A DNA stretch of 64,000 nt from an uncultured Schlesneria sp. (lineage in GTDB: Bacteria > Planctomycetota > Planctomycetia > Planctomycetales > Planctomycetaceae), in contig CAIULL010000233.1 in the NCBI GenBank assembly GCA_903899985.1, forward strand, positions 1-64,000, given 5' to 3'. Position 1 is the first letter of the stretch. The number at the start of each line of letters is the position of its first letter. This document shows positions 25,511-34,138 of the stretch, piece after piece. The notes beneath the pieces are model-generated. The model ran no database searches. It saw only the letters and a program-made list of their open reading frames with translations, and was not told the DNA's origin. The position numbers and the translations under genes are program-made.

Positions 25511-28500
25511 TTAGACGTTTGAGATAACGCGCGCCTTGGTTCCCGCGTCGCCTAACGGAATTTCTGACTTCTTCAGGTGGTTCTTCAATGCAATCATCAG
25601 GCGATCGACTTCTCGTATCAGACCTTGAGTGCCGTCCTCCAGTTGCGTCAGCTGTTGCTCATGGCAAATCTGTTCTAACCGCATTGCGGCGTGGTAAGTC
25701 GGTTCGGCGCAAAGATTCGAGACACTCCCTTTAATAGTATGGACTGCTTTGCCTGCCGATTCGCAGTCTTGTTTTGCGACGGCCGACTTCAGGGATGTGA
25801 TCAGGTCCGGGATCGAATTGAGAATCAATTCACAAATTTCATTCACGAATCCGTCGTCGCCTTCAAATCGCTTGAGCGCCGCGGGAAAGTCGAAAACCTG
25901 TTGTTCTGGTACAGCTTCCGTGGATTGTTGAGATTGATGGCTGACTGCCGGGTCGACGGATGCTCGATTGAATTTATGAATCAGAGAACATGCCTTGGCC
26001 ACCGAGGCTTCGTTGATCGGCTTGCTCACGTAATCGTCCATTCCAGCCGCAAGGCAGCGTTCTCGGTCTCCGGACATTGCGTAGGCGGTCATCGCAATGA
26101 TCGGAATATGGCGTCCCGTCAATTCTTCCTGTTTGCGAATGGCCATCGTCGCTTTGAATCCGTCCATCACGGGCATTTGGATATCCATCATGACAACATC
26201 GAACTCGCCCTCCTGCAAGGCGTGGAGCGCCTTTTCACCGTTTTCGACAACGCGGACCGAGTGACCAAGCTTGTTCAGAAAACGAGTTGCCACTCGCTGA
26301 TTGATCAGATTGTCTTCCGCCATCAGGACACGCAACTGCTGGACGGTTGATGGCTCAGGAGTGATTTGACCTGCCGTGAGACCGGCTTGTTGCCGATCAG
26401 TCAGGCCGAGGGTCTTAATGATCGCTTCACGCAATTCTGACTGCTTCAGTGGCTTCAAGAGCGTTGCTGCAATGCCGAGGTCGGTGCAATGTGCACTCGC
26501 ACCCGGTCGATCTGACGATGTCAGCATCATGATGACAGAACGTGCCAGCTCGGGGAACTTTTTCAGTTCTTCAACGAACATGAACCCGTCCATCTTGGGC
26601 ATATGGCAATCGGTCAGGATCAGGTCAAAAGCTTTGTTCTCATTCGCCGCTTTGTGCAATTCGTCAAGTGCTGTCGCGCCGCCATCGGCCAGTGTAGGAA
26701 TCATGTTCCAGCCGAGAAGGACTTCTTCCAGAATGCGCCGATTGGTTGGATTGTCGTCGACGACCAAAACCCGCAAACCCTCGAGTGCCACAGACTGAGT
26801 GGGGTCGCCGGTTTGTTCTGGAGCGACCGTCACTGGCAATTCAATCGTGAAATAGAATGTACTTCCTGCGTTCTCTGCACTGGTTAAGGCAAGGTCACCA
26901 CCCATCAATTGGACAAGCTGTTTAGAAATTGATAAACCCAATCCCGTGCCGCCGTAAGAGCGGGTTGTGGAAACATCTGCCTGAGTAAACGCATCGAAGA
27001 TGAGCGACTGCTTATCTAACGGAACGCCGATGCCGGTGTCCCGTACCGAGAAGTGCAAAACTGCAATTGAATCTGTGCGACTGACCATTTCGACCATCAC
27101 TCCAACTTCACCCTGATCGGTGAACTTGATGGCATTGCCGACCAGATTGACCAGAATCTGTCGCAGGCGTCCAGCGTCCCCGATCAACCAGTCCGGAATG
27201 TCTGTTGAGATGTGCCAGTACAACTCGAGATGCTTCTCATGAGCCCGGGCGGCGAGTGTTTTCATCGTTTCGCCCAGGGATTCTCGCAGCTGAAACGTCT
27301 GGGGATCGAGTTCAAATTTCCCTGACTCGATCTTCGAGAAGTCCAGGATATCATTGATAATTCGCAGCAGTGAATCGGCTGACAGCTTGACACTCTCGAG
27401 AAATTCACGTTGCTCGGTGTTCAATGGCGTGTCAAGGGCCAGATCGGTCATCCCGATAATTCCATTCATGGGAGTACGGATCTCATGACTCATGTTGGCG
27501 AGGAATTCACTTTTCGCTCGATTGGCATGTTCAGCGGCGACAAGAGCTCGCTTGACTGCCGTATCAGAAAACTTGCGTTCGATGCCAAGACTGATTCCAT
27601 CCGCAATGGCCGTTAGCGATTCAAATTCCGTGTCGGACAACGGACGCCACGCATACATTCCCATTACGCCGACGAGTCGGTTGTCAACGATTAGCGGGTG
27701 CCCGGCGAAGGAGATCAGCCCTTCTCGTCGAGCCCATTCCCGTTCTTCCTTTTCTTGGGATTGATGGATCACATCGTTCGTTAAAAAAGGCTTTCGCTCC
27801 TGCGCGATCTTACCAATCTTGAACTGACCGACGCGGATGCGAGCGTGTGTACCATTCAGATGTGTATAAAGGCCTGCACTTGCCTGCAATTCTAACTCAT
27901 CACCTGAATCTGAAATCGTCCAGATCCGAACGAACGCCGCATCGAGGTGCTGTATGATTGATTCTGCACACGACTGCAAAGTCTTCTGCAGAGGACCACT
28001 CGCCGTGAGTGCGATTCCAATCCGGCCCGTCAATTCAGCCAGCATCGTCCGTTCGCTGATGGCTGCGGCAAATCGCTTGCGGTCTGTGATATCGCGGACG
28101 AAGCTTGTGAAGATGCGCCCGGTATCCAGTTCCACTTCGCTGACGGTGAGCTCCGCATGAAAAATGGTTCCGTCCTTGCGTACGCCATCAACCTCGCGGC
28201 CAATCCCAATGACGTGTTTTTCTCCGGTTAACTGGTATCGAGCCAGGTAACCGTCGTGCTCGGTGCGAAACGGTGCGGGCATCAACTTGTTGATGTTTTT
28301 TCCCACGAGTTCTGTCGGGTTGTAACCGAACAGCTTTTCGGTTGCGGGGTTGGCTGATTCGATGATGCCGCGGGCATCGATCGTGATGACGGCATCAACG
28401 GCCGCATCGAGAATCGCCCGTATCCGCTGTTCGCTGTCTCTCAGCGATAGCTGATTTCGAGTGATTTCGGCAGTGCGCTGATAAACTTCGTGCTCAACAA

Positions 28501-29161
28501 TTTCGTTCGTTTTTTCCAGCTGACTTTGACGCTCGGCGAGGATATTTGTCTGGCGATTACTTTGTAAGCAGGCGAAGACGAGGAAGATATCCTCGAAAAT
28601 CACCCAGCCTGCATGTTCGATCCAGCGCACATGGCTGACCACTTCGTCACCATAGATTGACATCGGCCAGAGATAACCTCGCAAAAAGTGGTCCGTCGCA
28701 GTGACCAGCGAAGCGGTGATCAGTACTCGCCAGTCCCGATAGAACATGAGAAATGCGAGTGATCCAAACACAAGAAAGTGAGTCTCGATCCGTCCACCAG
28801 TAAGATGAATCAGTAAGCCGGCCATGAGCATTTGCGCGATGGCAATCACGTGCCTGGTTTGGCTTAGTCCCGAATGAAACCTCGCTAGAAAAATTGGAAG
28901 GCTGATAATCAGCGATCCGAGTAGCACGGCCGCAAGGACGTGTGGATGCAGCTGCCGTTCCGTCCCCGCCCAGGCATAGGGCGAAATCCAGAGAGCTGTT
29001 GCGATTCCCGCCACAAACTCAAATGCAAGCAATCCTGCAAGTAATCGGTCGGTGACCCGATATTGACGATTCAACTGTTCCAGGGCGAGCTGTCGACCTC
29101 GTTCCGTCGAAAAGAATTCGACGGAACTTGCACTGGATAAAAGGTCAAGCAATTTGCTCAT
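25511..29161 (-). CDS. Hybrid sensor histidine kinase with PAS, GAF, two receivers and HPt
   Basis: 1216 residues. A multi-helix membrane sensor covers about 36-200, with a conserved-looking patch [25 protein letters not shown] cut here by helices and several histidines. A coiled coil (205-245) leads to PAS (245-362), GAF (375-530), HisKA with His559 ([11 protein letters not shown]), HATPase (N box [21 protein letters not shown]), receiver 1 with Asp851 ([11 protein letters not shown]), receiver 2 with Asp993 ([11 protein letters not shown]) and a C-terminal HPt domain with His1141 ([11 protein letters not shown]). All phospho-acceptors are present, so a full His-Asp-His-Asp relay is possible. 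It is preceded 58 bp upstream by a REC-HATPase gene that could be the output. Confidence 0.95.
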
Positions 29162-29219
29162 GTCAATCCGGCCTTCAGGATGTCGAGTTGGCCACGGCGG
29201 ACGACGGATCGGAGTTCCC

Positions 29220-30110
29220 TTACAAGCCCCGTTTCACCATCGTAATTTCATTCCCCTGCAAGTTATGGGTCACTTCGTCCATAAAACTATGAATCAATAG
29301 CGTTCCTCGGCCTTCGATCCCCTCCAGATTGATCGTGCCGATTGAGTTTGGCCGCTCTAACGGTTTGGTACCTGAGCCGTCATCAGAGACGATAAAGCGT
29401 GCTTCGGCACCAGAGAATCGCGAAGACAACCTGACTCGACGTGAAGCATACGGCTCATCCCGACGACGTTCCACCACCAAGCGGCAAAAAATGGCTTCAT
29501 CACCTTGCCTCAGTTCCGTGTCCAATTCCAAATTACCATGAAAGATAGCGTACGTCAGCGATTCGTAAATCGCCATTCCAATTCGCGTAATTTGCAATTG
29601 ATTGGAATGTCGCATGGTTTCGAGTTGATCCTGGAGGTAAGCAATCAGTGGACTGATTAACGAGGGATCATTTTCCAGAGTAAAATGCGATTCGAGCACG
29701 TCCAGTGTCGTAGGAACCTGGCTTTGATTCCGTTGCCAGTGGGACACGGAAAGGACATGTTTGACGGTCTCAACCAGATGTTTGTCGAGGGCACTTTTGG
29801 GTACGTAGCTGGTCGCCCCTGCTTTCAGTGCCTGGATGGCAATCTGCTGCGTACCAAAGCCTGTCATCAGAATCACAGGTGCACTGCATCCTTGCGATTT
29901 GATTTGTTCCACCAATTCCAGCCCGTTCATCCCGGGCATTTGCAGGTCCGTAATGATCAAGTCTGGAGTTTCAGAAGCAATCGCCGCAATCGCCTTTTCA
30001 CCATTTTCCACGCTCAAAAGTGTGACGTCGGCGATCCCCTTTTTCAGGAAAAACTCGACCAGCCTCCGATCAATAGCTGAGTCATCAACAATCACAATGC
30101 GATTCGTCAA
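29220..30110 (-). CDS. Response regulator fused to an anti-sigma-type HATPase
   Basis: 296 residues from a TTG at 30110, chosen because GGAGG stands nine bases upstream and because the receiver strand RIVIVDDSA then begins at the usual place. The receiver domain carries the phospho-acceptor in [11 protein letters not shown] and the Lys in VPKSALD. After a linker, residues from about 175 on read as an RsbW-type HATPase ([40 protein letters not shown]). Known relatives control partner-switching cascades by binding or phosphorylating STAS proteins. First gene of an operon with the large hybrid kinase. A STAS gene exists in this window at 63410, but pairing with it is speculative. Confidence 0.88.
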
Positions 30111-30442
30111 TCGGAAATTCCTCCCAAAACTACCGTTCGTCAGTTCACACGTACACAAAAACTCAGCGACGCCGAGTCTCTCCAGAATAGCAATAAAAAC
30201 CAGAAAAACATCAAAATTAATGTGAATTTCCACTCATCAATCGGCAACTCTCGTTTGCAATTCGCTTCGATTGCATTTTTGCAGGATTGTCAGCCCTCTC
30301 TGGAGATGAGCATTACAAAATGGTTGACCATTGGTCATTTCCACGCGTCAAATTTCGGTCTCGCCTCTGCGGCTTTGGCCGACGCTGCTAGCGTCGGTCT
30401 GGTGACGGAGACCAAAAATTCTTGCCACGTTCGTGCGACGAA
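30111..30442. other. Intergenic region with nested hairpin
   Basis: Upstream of the REC-HATPase gene and downstream of the Rrf2 gene. At 30358-30413 GGTCTC and GAGACC enclose CCGACGCT/AGCGTCGG. It may end the Rrf2 transcript, but no strong T-run follows on the minus strand. No gene seen. Confidence 0.45.
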
Positions 30443-30874
30443 TTACTTCAGTTTCGGCCCTGGTGCTTTTTGAAATTGCGCCAGCGTCGTTTGTTGAAGA
30501 AAGTCTGACATCTGCTGGCGAAATTGGACAAAATGATGATGCAGCGGGCAATGCGGACCAGTACCGCACCAGTCTTCGCCAAAGGGGCACATCAGCGTTG
30601 TGTCGAGTCGTTCGAACGGAGAAATTACATCGTTGAGGGTGATTTCTTGCGGAGGGCGAGCAAGCCAATAGCCACCGCCAGGCCCGGGGGCACCATTGAC
30701 CATTCCCGCCTGCGAAAGCGTCGTCAGCACCTTAGCGACGATCGCTTGGGATAGTTTGCGGTTCTCAGCAATCTCCCGTGAATTGAGCCGCCTTCCCCCC
30801 TCTCCCGTGTAGTGCTCTGCCAGAAGGCTGGCAGCCGAGACCGCAGCTTGAGCGACCTTCCCATAGTGTGTCAT
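30443..30874 (-). CDS. Rrf2-family regulator with Fe-S-type cysteines (NsrR/IscR-like)
   Basis: 143 residues from the ATG at 30874. Winged helix-turn-helix at the N-terminus (KVAQAAVSAASLLAEHY, SREIAENRKLSQAIVAKVL), wing GAPGPGGGYWLARP, then a cysteine cluster Cys96-x6-Cys103-x5-Cys109 in LMCPFGEDWCGTGPHCPLH, close in position and spacing to the cluster ligands of NsrR and IscR. Divergent from the hybrid-cluster protein gene, a classic target of NO-sensing NsrR, which suggests it represses or activates that gene. A 10-5-10 inverted repeat between them is a candidate operator. NO sensing is inferred, not shown. Confidence 0.9.
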   Translation of the reverse strand: MTHYGKVAQAAVSAASLLAEHYTGEGGRRLNSREIAENRKLSQAIVAKVLTTLSQAGMVNGAPGPGGGYWLARPPQEITLNDVISPFERLDTTLMCPFGEDWCGTGPHCPLHHHFVQFRQQMSDFLQQTTLAQFQKAPGPKLK

Positions 30875-31071
30875 ACGACAGTTGTTCCGAAAATTGATGG
30901 GTTCGCGAGCGCGATGAAGATGTTCGTTTCGCAGTGGAGACTTTCCGTCTCCATCGATCATTTCTGTCTGTGGCAGGAAGTCGCAGCGACGACGCGTAGA
31001 CCACTGTTTCCAATTTGCAAAAACTGACAACCACGATTGGCTGAAGATAGCTGATTTCCCGTTTATGAGCA

Positions 31072-31096
31072 AATAAAGAAAAAACATTCTTTATTT
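31072..31096. promoter_or_regulatory. Candidate Rrf2 operator in the hcp divergent region
   Basis: Perfect inverted repeat AAATAAAGAA - AAACA - TTCTTTATTT (10-bp arms, 5-bp spacer, 25 bp in all). The size fits the 23-25 bp dyads bound by Rrf2 dimers such as NsrR. It lies 77 bp before the hcp start; a weak promoter-like TTGAAT (31099) with TATCGT 17 bases further follows directly, so binding would touch the promoter. Confidence 0.6.
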
Positions 31097-31173
31097 CTTG
31101 AATGCTGGGCGCATGGCGGTTATCGTGTCGACATGAGCACTGACTTCATTCTCCTTTCACCAAGGAATCCAAG

Positions 31174-32460
31174 ATGTTCTGCAATCAATGTGAACAGACT
31201 CAGAACGGAACCGGCTGCACCGATATTGGAGTTTGCGGCAAAGATGCGGATGTGCAGTCACTGCAAGAAATCCTGCTTTATGGACTGAAAGGGATGGCGG
31301 CGTACGCCAATCACGCGCGCCGTCTCGGCAAGACCGATGAGAACGTCAGCGCGTTTATCGAAGAGGGGCTTTTCGCCACAATGACCAACGTCAACTTCGA
31401 CATCCCCACTTTGCTCGAAATGGTCCTGGAGTGCGGTCGACAGAATTTGCGCGTGATGGAACTGCTGGATCAGGGTCACTGTGAACGATTCGGCAAGCCG
31501 GTACCGACAACCGTCAGGGAGGGGACCATTGCCGGGCCAGGCATCCTTGTCACGGGACACGATCTGGTCGACCTAGCCACGCTGCTGGAACAGACCGTCG
31601 GCACCGGAATCAACGTTTATACACATGGCGAGATGCTTCCCGCTCACAGTTACCCAGGCCTTAAAAAGTACCCTCACCTTGTTGGGCACTTTGGTGGTCC
31701 GTGGCAGAACCAGCAGTGGGAATTCCCCATGTTTGCGGGGCCGATCGTGGCCACAACAAATTGCGTTCTGATTCCGTCCGATCTTTATGCGGACAGGCTT
31801 TTTACGACCCGCGTCACGGCGGTTCCTGGCGGTACACGGCTCAAGACAGACGACTTCTCTCAAGTGATCGCCACGGCCCGGACTTGCGCATCCCTGACGG
31901 AGAACTTTGTCCGCGAATCAACAATCGGGTTCCATCACAGCGTGATCCTCAGTCTGGCAGACAAGGTCGTTGCGGCGGTCAAATCGGGTGACATCAAGCG
32001 TTTCTATCTGATCGGTGGCTGCGATGGAGCCGAAGCAGGACGCAACTACTATACGCAGGTGGCAGAACAATCACCCGAACAGTCGGTGATCCTCACGCTT
32101 GGATGTGGAAAATACCGCATCCGCAACCATGATTATGGAACCGTCGCGGGCATTCCGCGTCTACTTGATATGGGACAATGCAATGATGCCTATGGTGCGG
32201 TTCAAGTGGCCCTGGCACTCGCTAACGCATTCGAATGCGGAGTCAACGACTTGCCGTTGGAGATTGTTCTTTCCTGGTTCGAGCAGAAGGCGGTTGCTGT
32301 GTTGCTCACGCTGCTAGCGTTAAATGTCAAAGGGATTCGGGTCGGGCCAGTTGCACCGGCCTTCATTACACCCAACATCTTCAAAGTCTTGCAGGACAAG
32401 TTTGACCTGAAACTGATTGAATCCGAACCGCCAACGGACCTGGTTCAGCTTGCTGTGTGA
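31174..32460 (+). CDS. hcp: Hybrid-cluster protein (hydroxylamine reductase), short form
   Basis: 428 residues. The N-terminal cluster ligands Cys3, Cys6, Cys15 and Cys21 (MFCNQCEQTQNGTGC, GVCGK) are present. Hybrid-cluster ligands are recognisable: GHDLVDL, HGEMLPAH, TTNCVLIP, LGCGKYR, GQCNDAYG and SWFEQKA. The usual length is about 550 residues; here about 110-120 residues are missing from the helical first domain, as in the class III proteins described from archaea and thermophiles. The enzymes reduce NO or hydroxylamine and function in nitrosative stress. AAGGA lies eight bases before the ATG. Divergent Rrf2 gene and downstream protoglobin support an NO-response role. Confidence 0.93.
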   Translation: MFCNQCEQTQNGTGCTDIGVCGKDADVQSLQEILLYGLKGMAAYANHARRLGKTDENVSAFIEEGLFATMTNVNFDIPTLLEMVLECGRQNLRVMELLDQGHCERFGKPVPTTVREGTIAGPGILVTGHDLVDLATLLEQTVGTGINVYTHGEMLPAHSYPGLKKYPHLVGHFGGPWQNQQWEFPMFAGPIVATTNCVLIPSDLYADRLFTTRVTAVPGGTRLKTDDFSQVIATARTCASLTENFVRESTIGFHHSVILSLADKVVAAVKSGDIKRFYLIGGCDGAEAGRNYYTQVAEQSPEQSVILTLGCGKYRIRNHDYGTVAGIPRLLDMGQCNDAYGAVQVALALANAFECGVNDLPLEIVLSWFEQKAVAVLLTLLALNVKGIRVGPVAPAFITPNIFKVLQDKFDLKLIESEPPTDLVQLAV

Positions 32461-32735
32461 GCCTCGTGAGGGGAGTCCCTTTGAAACGGAACGCAGCGGA
32501 ACTGGGTGCCACGGCTTTACCGTCTACGGTTTCAAGCCCTGCTCTTCAGACACGTTGTCGAACCACAGGGACACAGCCATGTCGAAGGCTCAAAGTCCAT
32601 AAAACACCATGTTTCGGCCGCGATGCGATTCAAAAGGCGTAATCTCAACACCCTTCATCGCATTATCCGGATTTTCCACTGCTGTTTGCTTCAGATTCTT
32701 GACCCCTCCCTGGACTATTTCCAAGGCCGCGTATC

Positions 32736-33323
32736 ATGCAAACCATTGACGAATCTCGTCTCGAAACCGATTCGCAATATCGTTTCGAATTTCTCGCCAG
32801 CTTCATCGGTTTCGGTCCGGAAGATGTCAAGCTGATTCAGGGATCGGCTCCGCATCTGGGGCCGAGAGTGTCACAGCTTGTTGATCAGACTTACCAGAAG
32901 CTGCTTTCATTCGATGCGACCGCGCGTCATTTTGTCCCTCGTCAACATGGCTTCGAGGGTCCAGTCCCTGCGGATCTCCAGTCACTTTCTGAAGATCATC
33001 CGCAGATCAAGTTCCGCAAAGACCACTTGAACCGGTACTTCGTTCAACTGATCGGTCGAGCCTACGACGCAAAGATGGTGCAGTACCTCGACATGGTTGG
33101 TCGTATCCATACACCGAAAGCAGGAAGTCAGGAAATCAATGTTCCGCTCGTGCAGATGAATGCTCTGCTGGGAGTTGTTTCTCACACGTTGTTCAATTCG
33201 ATTTCTGAATGGCCCCTCGCCACAGAATTAAAGTTTCGCACCATCATGGCGTTTAACAAGTTGTTATGGATACAGAACGACTTCATCAGTCGTCACTATC
33301 AGTCAGCGATGTCTGAATCTTGA
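32736..33323 (+). CDS. Protoglobin (globin-coupled-sensor-like haem protein)
   Basis: 195 residues, the same length as archaeal protoglobin, with no transducer domain after the globin. Features are FEFLASFIGFGPEDVKLI at the N-terminus, Tyr53 in the probable distal B-helix position, and a likely proximal His125 in MVGRIHTPKAG. Protoglobins bind O2, CO and NO. It follows hcp by 275 bp on the same strand; that spacer contains no gene and no clear terminator, so co-expression is possible. Role in NO scavenging or sensing is inferred from the neighbours. Confidence 0.9.
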   Translation: MQTIDESRLETDSQYRFEFLASFIGFGPEDVKLIQGSAPHLGPRVSQLVDQTYQKLLSFDATARHFVPRQHGFEGPVPADLQSLSEDHPQIKFRKDHLNRYFVQLIGRAYDAKMVQYLDMVGRIHTPKAGSQEINVPLVQMNALLGVVSHTLFNSISEWPLATELKFRTIMAFNKLLWIQNDFISRHYQSAMSES

Positions 33324-33454
33324 TCCGTTGATCCCTATCCCGTAAAACGATTTCGATCCCAGTTCCGGCCAGCGTCAGTGTTCGACGCGAGGGCAAGTTG
33401 CGATAAAATTTCGCCTTGAATTGGGGGTGACATTTCACTCATTAGGGGGTGGCA

Positions 33455-34138
33455 ATGAGACGGATGTTTGCGAAGTTCATGTTGGCGGTCGCGATCACAT
33501 TGGTGATTCAATCGGGAAACGCTGGGGCTGGTGTCATTGTCGACAATACCAGTCAGTCGCAGGTAGGTAATGGACAAATTGGAGGAGGCCAGTTCGAGGG
33601 GCAGGAGTTCAACACGGGAAGTTTGAGCTACACTCTGGATTCGATCGTCGCTCAGGTGGGCGGGTTATCAGGTACAATTAACGGGATTGGGGCTCAACTG
33701 GTCCAGGACAATGGTGGCACCCCCGCTGGTGGGACTGTACTGACCACGTTTACGGTCCCCTCAATTGGAAGTTCCTTTGTCAACGAAGAATTCGATCCGA
33801 CAACGAGTGGTGTTGTTTTGGCCGCCAACACGAACTACTGGTTTATTTTGAACTATTCCTCGGGAAGTGGTACGTTCGGTTGGAATTACGCGGGGACCCA
33901 ATCGGCCAGCGGACCAGGCTCTTTAGGTGCTTACGCGACGAGTTTCGATAATGGGTCGACCTGGATCATCAACAACTTCGGACCCGGCACGCCCGACCTG
34001 ATCCAGGTCAATGGAACCGTGGTCGCGGCCGTGCCAGAAACTGGTACGCTGACTATGGCAGGGACTGCCGGCCTGTTTGGCCTCGCTATCTGGTGCCGAC
34101 GCCGGTCGGGAAATAAGTCGAAAAAGAGTTCCAACTAG
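33455..34138 (+). CDS. PEP-CTERM-like exported protein (choice-of-anchor R type)
   Basis: 227 residues from the ATG at 33455, with GGGGG six bases upstream; a GTG two codons earlier is possible. Signal peptide FAKFMLAVAITLVIQSGNAGA. The body (VIVDNTSQSQ, QEFNTGS, LDSIVAQVGG, LAANTNYWFILNY, FGWNYAGT) matches the pattern of the choice-of-anchor R domain. The C-terminal sorting tail is VPETGTLTMAGTAGLFGLAIWCRRR, with PET in place of PEP. Likely surface-anchored by an exosortase. A terminator follows. Confidence 0.85.
   Translation: MRRMFAKFMLAVAITLVIQSGNAGAGVIVDNTSQSQVGNGQIGGGQFEGQEFNTGSLSYTLDSIVAQVGGLSGTINGIGAQLVQDNGGTPAGGTVLTTFTVPSIGSSFVNEEFDPTTSGVVLAANTNYWFILNYSSGSGTFGWNYAGTQSASGPGSLGAYATSFDNGSTWIINNFGPGTPDLIQVNGTVVAAVPETGTLTMAGTAGLFGLAIWCRRRSGNKSKKSSN

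Follow-up and report, generated by a model that had tools for sequence, protein, structure and literature searches.

A conserved 28-bp operator in the hcp promoter of an uncultured Schlesneria, probably bound by the adjacent Rrf2-family regulator

The window, by which we mean the whole 64,000-nucleotide stretch analysed here, belongs to the 8-Mb genome (G000) of an uncultured Schlesneria, the name under which its near relatives are also recorded. It contains a gene for an Rrf2-family regulator (P0001, 143 aa; 30443..30874, minus strand) and, on the plus strand, hcp (31174..32460), which encodes a short hybrid cluster protein of 428 aa and is the predicted target of that regulator. The Hcp assignment holds at equivalog level, with 657.7 bits for NF003658 (cut-off 367) and 613.5 bits for TIGR01703; the best stretch of the window protein aligns to the 546-position model from position 136 onward, and part of the usual N-terminal region of Hcp seems to be missing. 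Next comes a protoglobin gene (32736..33323, plus strand; PF11563, 120.6 bits), and the same order, with protoglobin after hcp on the same strand, was found in 30 of 30 hcp loci (the best 30 matches of the hcp search), so that by gene order Hcp and protoglobin form a conserved partnership. In G038, which lies outside these 30 loci, the two genes are divergent. Beyond rrf2, positions 25511-30125 encode a large hybrid histidine kinase (recognised by eye) together with a HATPase-domain response regulator; similar kinase and response-regulator reading frames were seen by eye at the same place in G034. A gap of 299 bp separates the start of rrf2 (30874) from that of hcp (31174), and the dyad that the initial annotation had placed between these two genes is indeed located there.

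P0001 belongs to the Rrf2 family, with scores above the cut-offs of both PF02082 (92.9 bits, cut-off 30) and TIGR00738 (87.4 bits, cut-off 73.3), and its start codon agrees with those of its orthologs. The candidate ligand residues C96-x6-C103-x5-C109-x2-H112 are invariant across eight aligned orthologs and are predicted to hold an Fe-S cluster; the pattern resembles that of IscR at least as much as that of NsrR. The best-scoring named equivalogs were the SUF regulator (57.0 bits) and IscR (TIGR02010, 48.6 bits, cut-off 207.55) as against NsrR (NF008240, 37.4 bits, cut-off 182), all below cut-off, and an identity as NsrR or IscR was rejected on these curated scores. In a tree of 28 regulators, built without the G038 ortholog and without L082, L085 and L091, whose starts are partial or odd, P0001 did not cluster with Escherichia coli NsrR and lay on the opposite side of a 99/90 branch; the exact positions of NsrR and IscR are unsure, both branches being long. 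We assign P0001 no further than to the Rrf2 family, as a member predicted to act in the manner of NsrR, yet not NsrR by curated score.

The gap contains a perfect inverted repeat, AAATAAAGAA-AAAACA-TTCTTTATTT, of 26 bp (31071-31096), in which the left arm AAATAAAGAA (31071-31080) and the right arm TTCTTTATTT (31087-31096) match at all positions. The initial annotation had described a 10-5-10 dyad of 25 bp starting at 31072; its perfect 10-bp arms hold, whereas the spacer has 6 nt and the start lies at 31071, one spacer A having been lost in the earlier reading, which put both coordinates and count off by one. Any perfect dyad with 10-bp arms and a spacer of 0-12 arose in 10 of 1000 dinucleotide shuffles of the 299-bp gap and in none of 1000 shuffles of 31041-31140, and the dyad thus exceeds chance expectation in the gap. 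The whole 64-kb window holds five such dyad centres, compared with 0, 0, 0, 2 and 2 in five shuffles.

P0001 orthologs were found in 13 of the 170 genomes of the order (E<=1e-25, at least 51% identity). Twelve of these carry a common operator, which lies at hcp in five (G000, G034, G151, G153, G017) and at genes for a nap-type system in seven (G027, G032, G038, G051, G061, G065, G112); in the thirteenth, G030 (locus L081), the contig begins inside nrfD. An alignment search with P0001 recovered 21 loci in titled records, three of them from Verrucomicrobiota and two being halves of a single gene. In eight loci (L078, L080, L084, L087, L089, L090, G038, G061), genes for a cytochrome with a weak NapC/NirT-like stretch, a 4Fe-4S protein and NrfD, followed by rrf2, run divergently from a gene for a NapA-like reductase, and TCAAGAA-N14-TTCTTGA lies between the two divergent units, with one arm mismatch in L090. 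The best model for the reductase is NapA (880.5 bits, slightly below the cut-off of 904), and its neighbours include NapB (PF03892), NrfD (PF03916) and the 4Fe-4S protein. The NCBIfam name for the NrfD protein is DsrP (413.2 bits, cut-off 350), which sets the electron-transfer partner apart from the standard nap subunits.

Comparison with these relatives indicates that the conserved element of the window is the 28-bp TCAAGAA-N14-TTCTTGA register at 31074-31101 (31074..31101, no strand assigned). The window copy, TAAAGAA-N14-TTCTTGA or, read on the minus strand, TCAAGAA-N14-TTCTTTA, differs from the conserved form by one arm mismatch and matches the nap operators of relatives. Its register is shifted relative to the dyad described earlier, and the corrected 10-6-10 repeat (31071..31096, no strand assigned) consists of the left half-site of the operator paired with its central TTCTTT half-site. 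Among four genomes of the genus, 26 of 28 operator columns are identical, compared with 151 of 271 columns in the remaining intergenic region, and no 28-column stretch of the aligned gap is more conserved than 31074-31101. The 10-6-10 pairs are kept at 10, 10, 9 and 9 of 10 positions within the genus, the third pair from the outside being broken in G034 and G151, and drop to 5-8 of 10 in nine other copies, so this register was rejected as the conserved unit. The same figures bear on the view that the dyad works at the RNA level, as a hairpin or terminator, rather than as an operator. A 41-nt stretch does fold at -8.6 kcal/mol (z -3.8), which 1 of 200 shuffles equalled; the dyad is, however, situated upstream of the predicted hcp start, its pairing erodes in relatives while the 28-bp register holds, and an RNA element was rejected after Rfam gave no match at gathering score in 30400-33500. 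We regard this explanation as very improbable.

The operator stands in a fixed relation to a predicted promoter, and thus an inverted-repeat operator lies close to the core promoter of the linked genes, as expected for the Rrf2 type. The promoter-like pair TTGAAT/TATCGT noted earlier was correctly identified: the predicted -35 of hcp (31098..31103, plus strand) overlaps the right arm of the operator and the predicted -10 (31121..31126, plus strand) follows after 17 bp, both calls assuming sigma-70-type elements for a planctomycete. In a gap-free alignment of 13 copies, which represent 10 distinct 28-mers (identical pairs: the window and L076, L080 and L084, L089 and L036) and from which, as from all site alignments, the G017 site with its four arm mismatches was left out, TTGNNN-N17-TANNNT faces hcp or nap in 13 of 13, with TTGNNN and TANNNT each present in all copies and the TTG within the right arm. 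Only the -10 at 17 bp counts as independent promoter evidence, since the TTG belongs to the arm pattern by which most copies were found. On the side facing rrf2 or the cytochrome gene, TTGNNN-N17-TANNNT is present in 8 of 8 nap copies and in 0 of 5 hcp copies; the latter carry TTCTTTA or TTCTTAA as the rrf2-facing arm, a change at the G of the -35, and they lack the -10 as well. These sequences are most simply read as one operator shared by two back-to-back promoters at nap loci, with hcp loci keeping the hcp-side promoter alone.

The genomes were also scanned with R1, a sequence-only profile made from both strands of eight nap operators, none of which comes from the four genomes of the window genus. 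The scan covered the 170 genomes of the order under strict filters (33 of 3260 first-look candidates were scored in G000), for which reason weak additional places may be missed. R1 reported a single place in G000 up to E 0.5, namely the 28-bp operator in the hcp promoter, with E 1.5e-5 and 7.4e-5 on the two strands; this match spans model positions 3-47, without the -10. After the training places, the best matches were the hcp promoters of G000, G153, G034 and G151 (E 1.5e-5 to 4.9e-4), and the next-best place anywhere in the 170 genomes had E 0.005. In each of G153, G034 and G151 the hcp promoter ranked first and was accompanied by a single weak additional place (E 0.15-0.31). G017 carries hcp on a contig separate from that of rrf2, and its site (E 0.0134) ends 126 bp before hcp; the site is thus tied to its target gene rather than only to the gene of the regulator. 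L086, an rrf2-hcp-protoglobin locus from a MAG not titled Schlesneria (hcp 86% identical), has an R1 site before hcp with E 7.3e-7. Applied to the best 30 hcp loci, R1 matched five, those of G000, G034, G151, G153 and G017. The exact 28-mer pattern is not enriched across whole genomes (17 of 170 genomes, 7 at nap loci, against 14 of 170 for a reversed control), and the case therefore depends on where the sites lie and on the more complete model. AT-rich islands do yield repeats, and five comparable dyad centres exist in the window; against a functionless repeat of chance origin stand the conservation in relatives, which reaches outside the genus unless the aligned sites are an artefact, the fixed promoter register and the single place in the genome scan, and we consider this explanation next to impossible.

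An hcp gene was found in 51 of the 170 genomes (E<=1e-80) and in 11 of the 13 that carry a P0001 ortholog. Among these 11, R1 reports no place at hcp in four (G027, G051, G061, G038); in G065 and G032, the operator is followed, on one strand, by napA and then hcp-protoglobin. A NapA search (E<=1e-60) gave no match in G000, G034, G151 and G153, and none of the 5 of 15 genus genomes that do match NapA, at 32-35% identity, has a P0001 ortholog. Since the rrf2-bearing genomes of the genus lack a NapA match at this threshold, hcp, probably together with protoglobin, is the only target that R1 indicates in G000. Searching relatives for the site, as the initial annotation had suggested, thus supported an Rrf2-type operator at hcp: the site accompanies P0001 orthologs and keeps an invariant distance from the -10 (13 of 13 aligned copies). 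At protoglobin R1 finds no separate operator in the window; an operator of its own was rejected, and protoglobin probably follows hcp in one transcription unit.

With up to two mismatches, the pattern occurs in 12 of the 21 loci of the alignment search, and R1 adds L083. The eight loci without pattern or R1 site comprise L079 (G017, whose site at hcp is on another contig), the three Verrucomicrobiota loci L094-L096, in which R1 found no site, L081, L085 and L088, which have no relevant upstream DNA, and L082, where the nap start is off the contig. R1 also found no site in 22 further loci of the phylum (L099-L120), which extend over 2.5-3.4 kb, such that a site 3 kb away, as at nap, would escape. 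In L092 (5926-11745) and L093 (5925-11743), orthologs of 51-52% identity precede a CxxCH protein, seen by eye, and a molybdopterin oxidoreductase (PF00384, tested in L092); a degenerate operator with two arm mismatches lies just before rrf2 in each (R1 E 0.019 in L093, none in L092). In L094 (2884-6365), from an Akkermansiaceae MAG, the gene for a regulator relative of 48% identity lies close to one for a copper nitrite reductase, which exceeds the TIGR02376 cut-off with 350 bits.

The initial annotation had also remarked that the dyad differs from the NsrR consensus, and this is upheld. The consensus given in the available text of PMC1274295, gATGyAT-N5-ATrCATc, is absent from the gap, where the best match (9/14) was equalled by 241 of 300 shuffles, and an NsrR site was rejected. 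Sites of the FNR/DNR and HcpR type were likewise rejected, the best matches to TTGAT-N4-ATCAA and TTGTGA-N4-TCACAA not rising above shuffles (300 and 58 of 300). These results are pertinent to the possibility that the operator serves another regulator, of FNR/DNR/HcpR type or a second Rrf2 protein that we call type B, and that the link to P0001 is accidental. G000 does carry a type B gene (C296:16631; locus L194:3592-4093), the type B pattern GGAY-N6-RTCC is found upstream of hcp in 14 of 30 loci, and a weak type B match exists in the window gap (10/12, reached by 18 of 300 shuffles). However, type B is widespread (136 of 170 genomes), while strong R1 places are found in genomes that have a P0001 ortholog; GGAY-N6-RTCC is absent from all four window-genus hcp promoters; and the FNR/DNR, HcpR and NsrR matches in the gap are those of shuffled sequence. 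An accidental link is therefore improbable in our estimation, though less so than an RNA element or chance.

In 8 of the 30 loci retrieved by the first search (L013, L015, L017-L020, L024, L028), type B itself (N-terminus MISQTVEYALR or similar; counted at E<=1e-25) is encoded divergently from protoglobin, and GGAY-N6-RTCC lies between the two genes in six of these eight, with two copies in five. The 14 of 30 loci with the pattern within 300 bp upstream of hcp compare with 1.7% in letter shuffles; in one of them (L155) it is inside a reading frame. In several hcp promoters the type B dyad encloses TTGACA, and in G000 a site is present 40 bp before the type B gene itself. Type B presumably binds GGAY-N6-RTCC, and the distribution of the two patterns suggests that hcp-protoglobin is under the control of one or the other of two Rrf2 proteins whose operators are dissimilar.

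Rrf2 proteins bind dyads of this sort. The earlier idea of an Rrf2-type operator for hcp gains support from the relatives, the fixed -10 distance and the single-place R1 scan, and we consider it very probable that P0001, the adjacent Rrf2 protein, uses this element as its operator and would repress hcp until its predicted Fe-S cluster meets NO or a related nitrogen oxide. We propose the following hypothetical sequence of events, in which (i) a P0001 dimer, or more than one, binds the 28-bp TAAAGAA-N14-TTCTTGA at 31074-31101; (ii) with the right arm of the operator over the hcp -35, bound P0001 would keep RNA polymerase away; (iii) an encounter of the predicted Fe-S cluster with NO (or nitrite) or a related nitrogen oxide would end repression; and (iv) hcp and the downstream protoglobin gene would then be expressed. 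In other genera, each arm would lie over the -35 of one of two opposed promoters, for nap and for the cytochrome-ferredoxin-NrfD-rrf2 unit, and one operator could close both because each arm overlaps one -35; in the genus of the window the rrf2-facing half-promoter is not recognisable, and the hcp side would remain.

Alternatively, P0001 might activate hcp, its apo or clustered form recruiting polymerase, or might respond to redox or Fe-S status instead of NO. Relative to the expected hcp start, the operator is centred near -45 (31087.5), a position that some activators also use, and E. coli IscR both activates and represses. The SUF regulator and IscR scores of P0001, above that for NsrR if all below cut-off, and the C-x5-C-x2-H ligand spacing that an alignment shows in common with E. 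coli IscR point the same way. The targets, on the other hand, are a NapA-like reductase and Hcp-protoglobin rather than Fe-S assembly, and the nap-locus site covers two opposed -35s, which is more easily read as occlusion. Activation or Fe-S sensing is accordingly rather unlikely, although it is the most serious of the alternatives, and repression relieved by a nitrogen oxide is the reading we prefer.

Several known systems resemble this repressor-operator arrangement in part. The NsrR regulon of proteobacteria and bacilli (Rodionov et al. 2005, PMC1274295, in its available text) shares with it an Rrf2-family regulator, a palindromic operator and hcp as a target; hcp belongs to NsrR regulons in that account, and nap and nrf are among the E. 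coli NsrR targets in the sections available of PMC8139620. P0001 nonetheless scores far below the NsrR cut-off, lies across a supported branch and has TCAAGAA-N14-TTCTTGA in place of the NsrR consensus. IscR of E. coli is also an Rrf2 protein, and its C-x5-C-x2-H end aligns with that of P0001; the P0001 score is well under the IscR cut-off, however, and inspection of the reading frames of the loci by eye revealed no Fe-S assembly gene. The type B Rrf2 of the same order is likewise linked to hcp and protoglobin, but is 27-34% identical to P0001 in the compared loci and has a different pattern. HcpR and DNR, of the Crp-Fnr family, control hcp and nitrogen-oxide genes in other bacteria (PMC1274295, available text), and differ in protein family and in site, none of which stands out in the window gap. 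The available text of PMC11014258 mentions NsrR homologs in magnetotactic Planctomycetota; by the words searched, that of PMC1274295 does not mention planctomycetes, and among the papers listed for Rrf2/NsrR, protoglobin, hydroxylamine reductase and NO in planctomycetes, a scope in which subscription journals are mostly not included, none was found to describe such a regulon.

More tentatively, it is possible that P0001 represents an unnamed planctomycete Rrf2 subfamily whose 28-bp operator is a shared switch, with its arms forming the -35s of two back-to-back promoters, and that at hcp this subfamily displaced type B, an Rrf2 protein with an unrelated operator, while the unneeded half-promoter decayed. 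The system described here gives planctomycetes a testable nitrogen-oxide regulon, with one regulator, one operator and either nap or hcp-protoglobin as the target. Neighbouring genera, moreover, place dissimilar Rrf2 operators upstream of one and the same pair of genes, and only a single side of a shared divergent promoter can be made out, so that the system is also a compact example, provided by nature, of how operators evolve.
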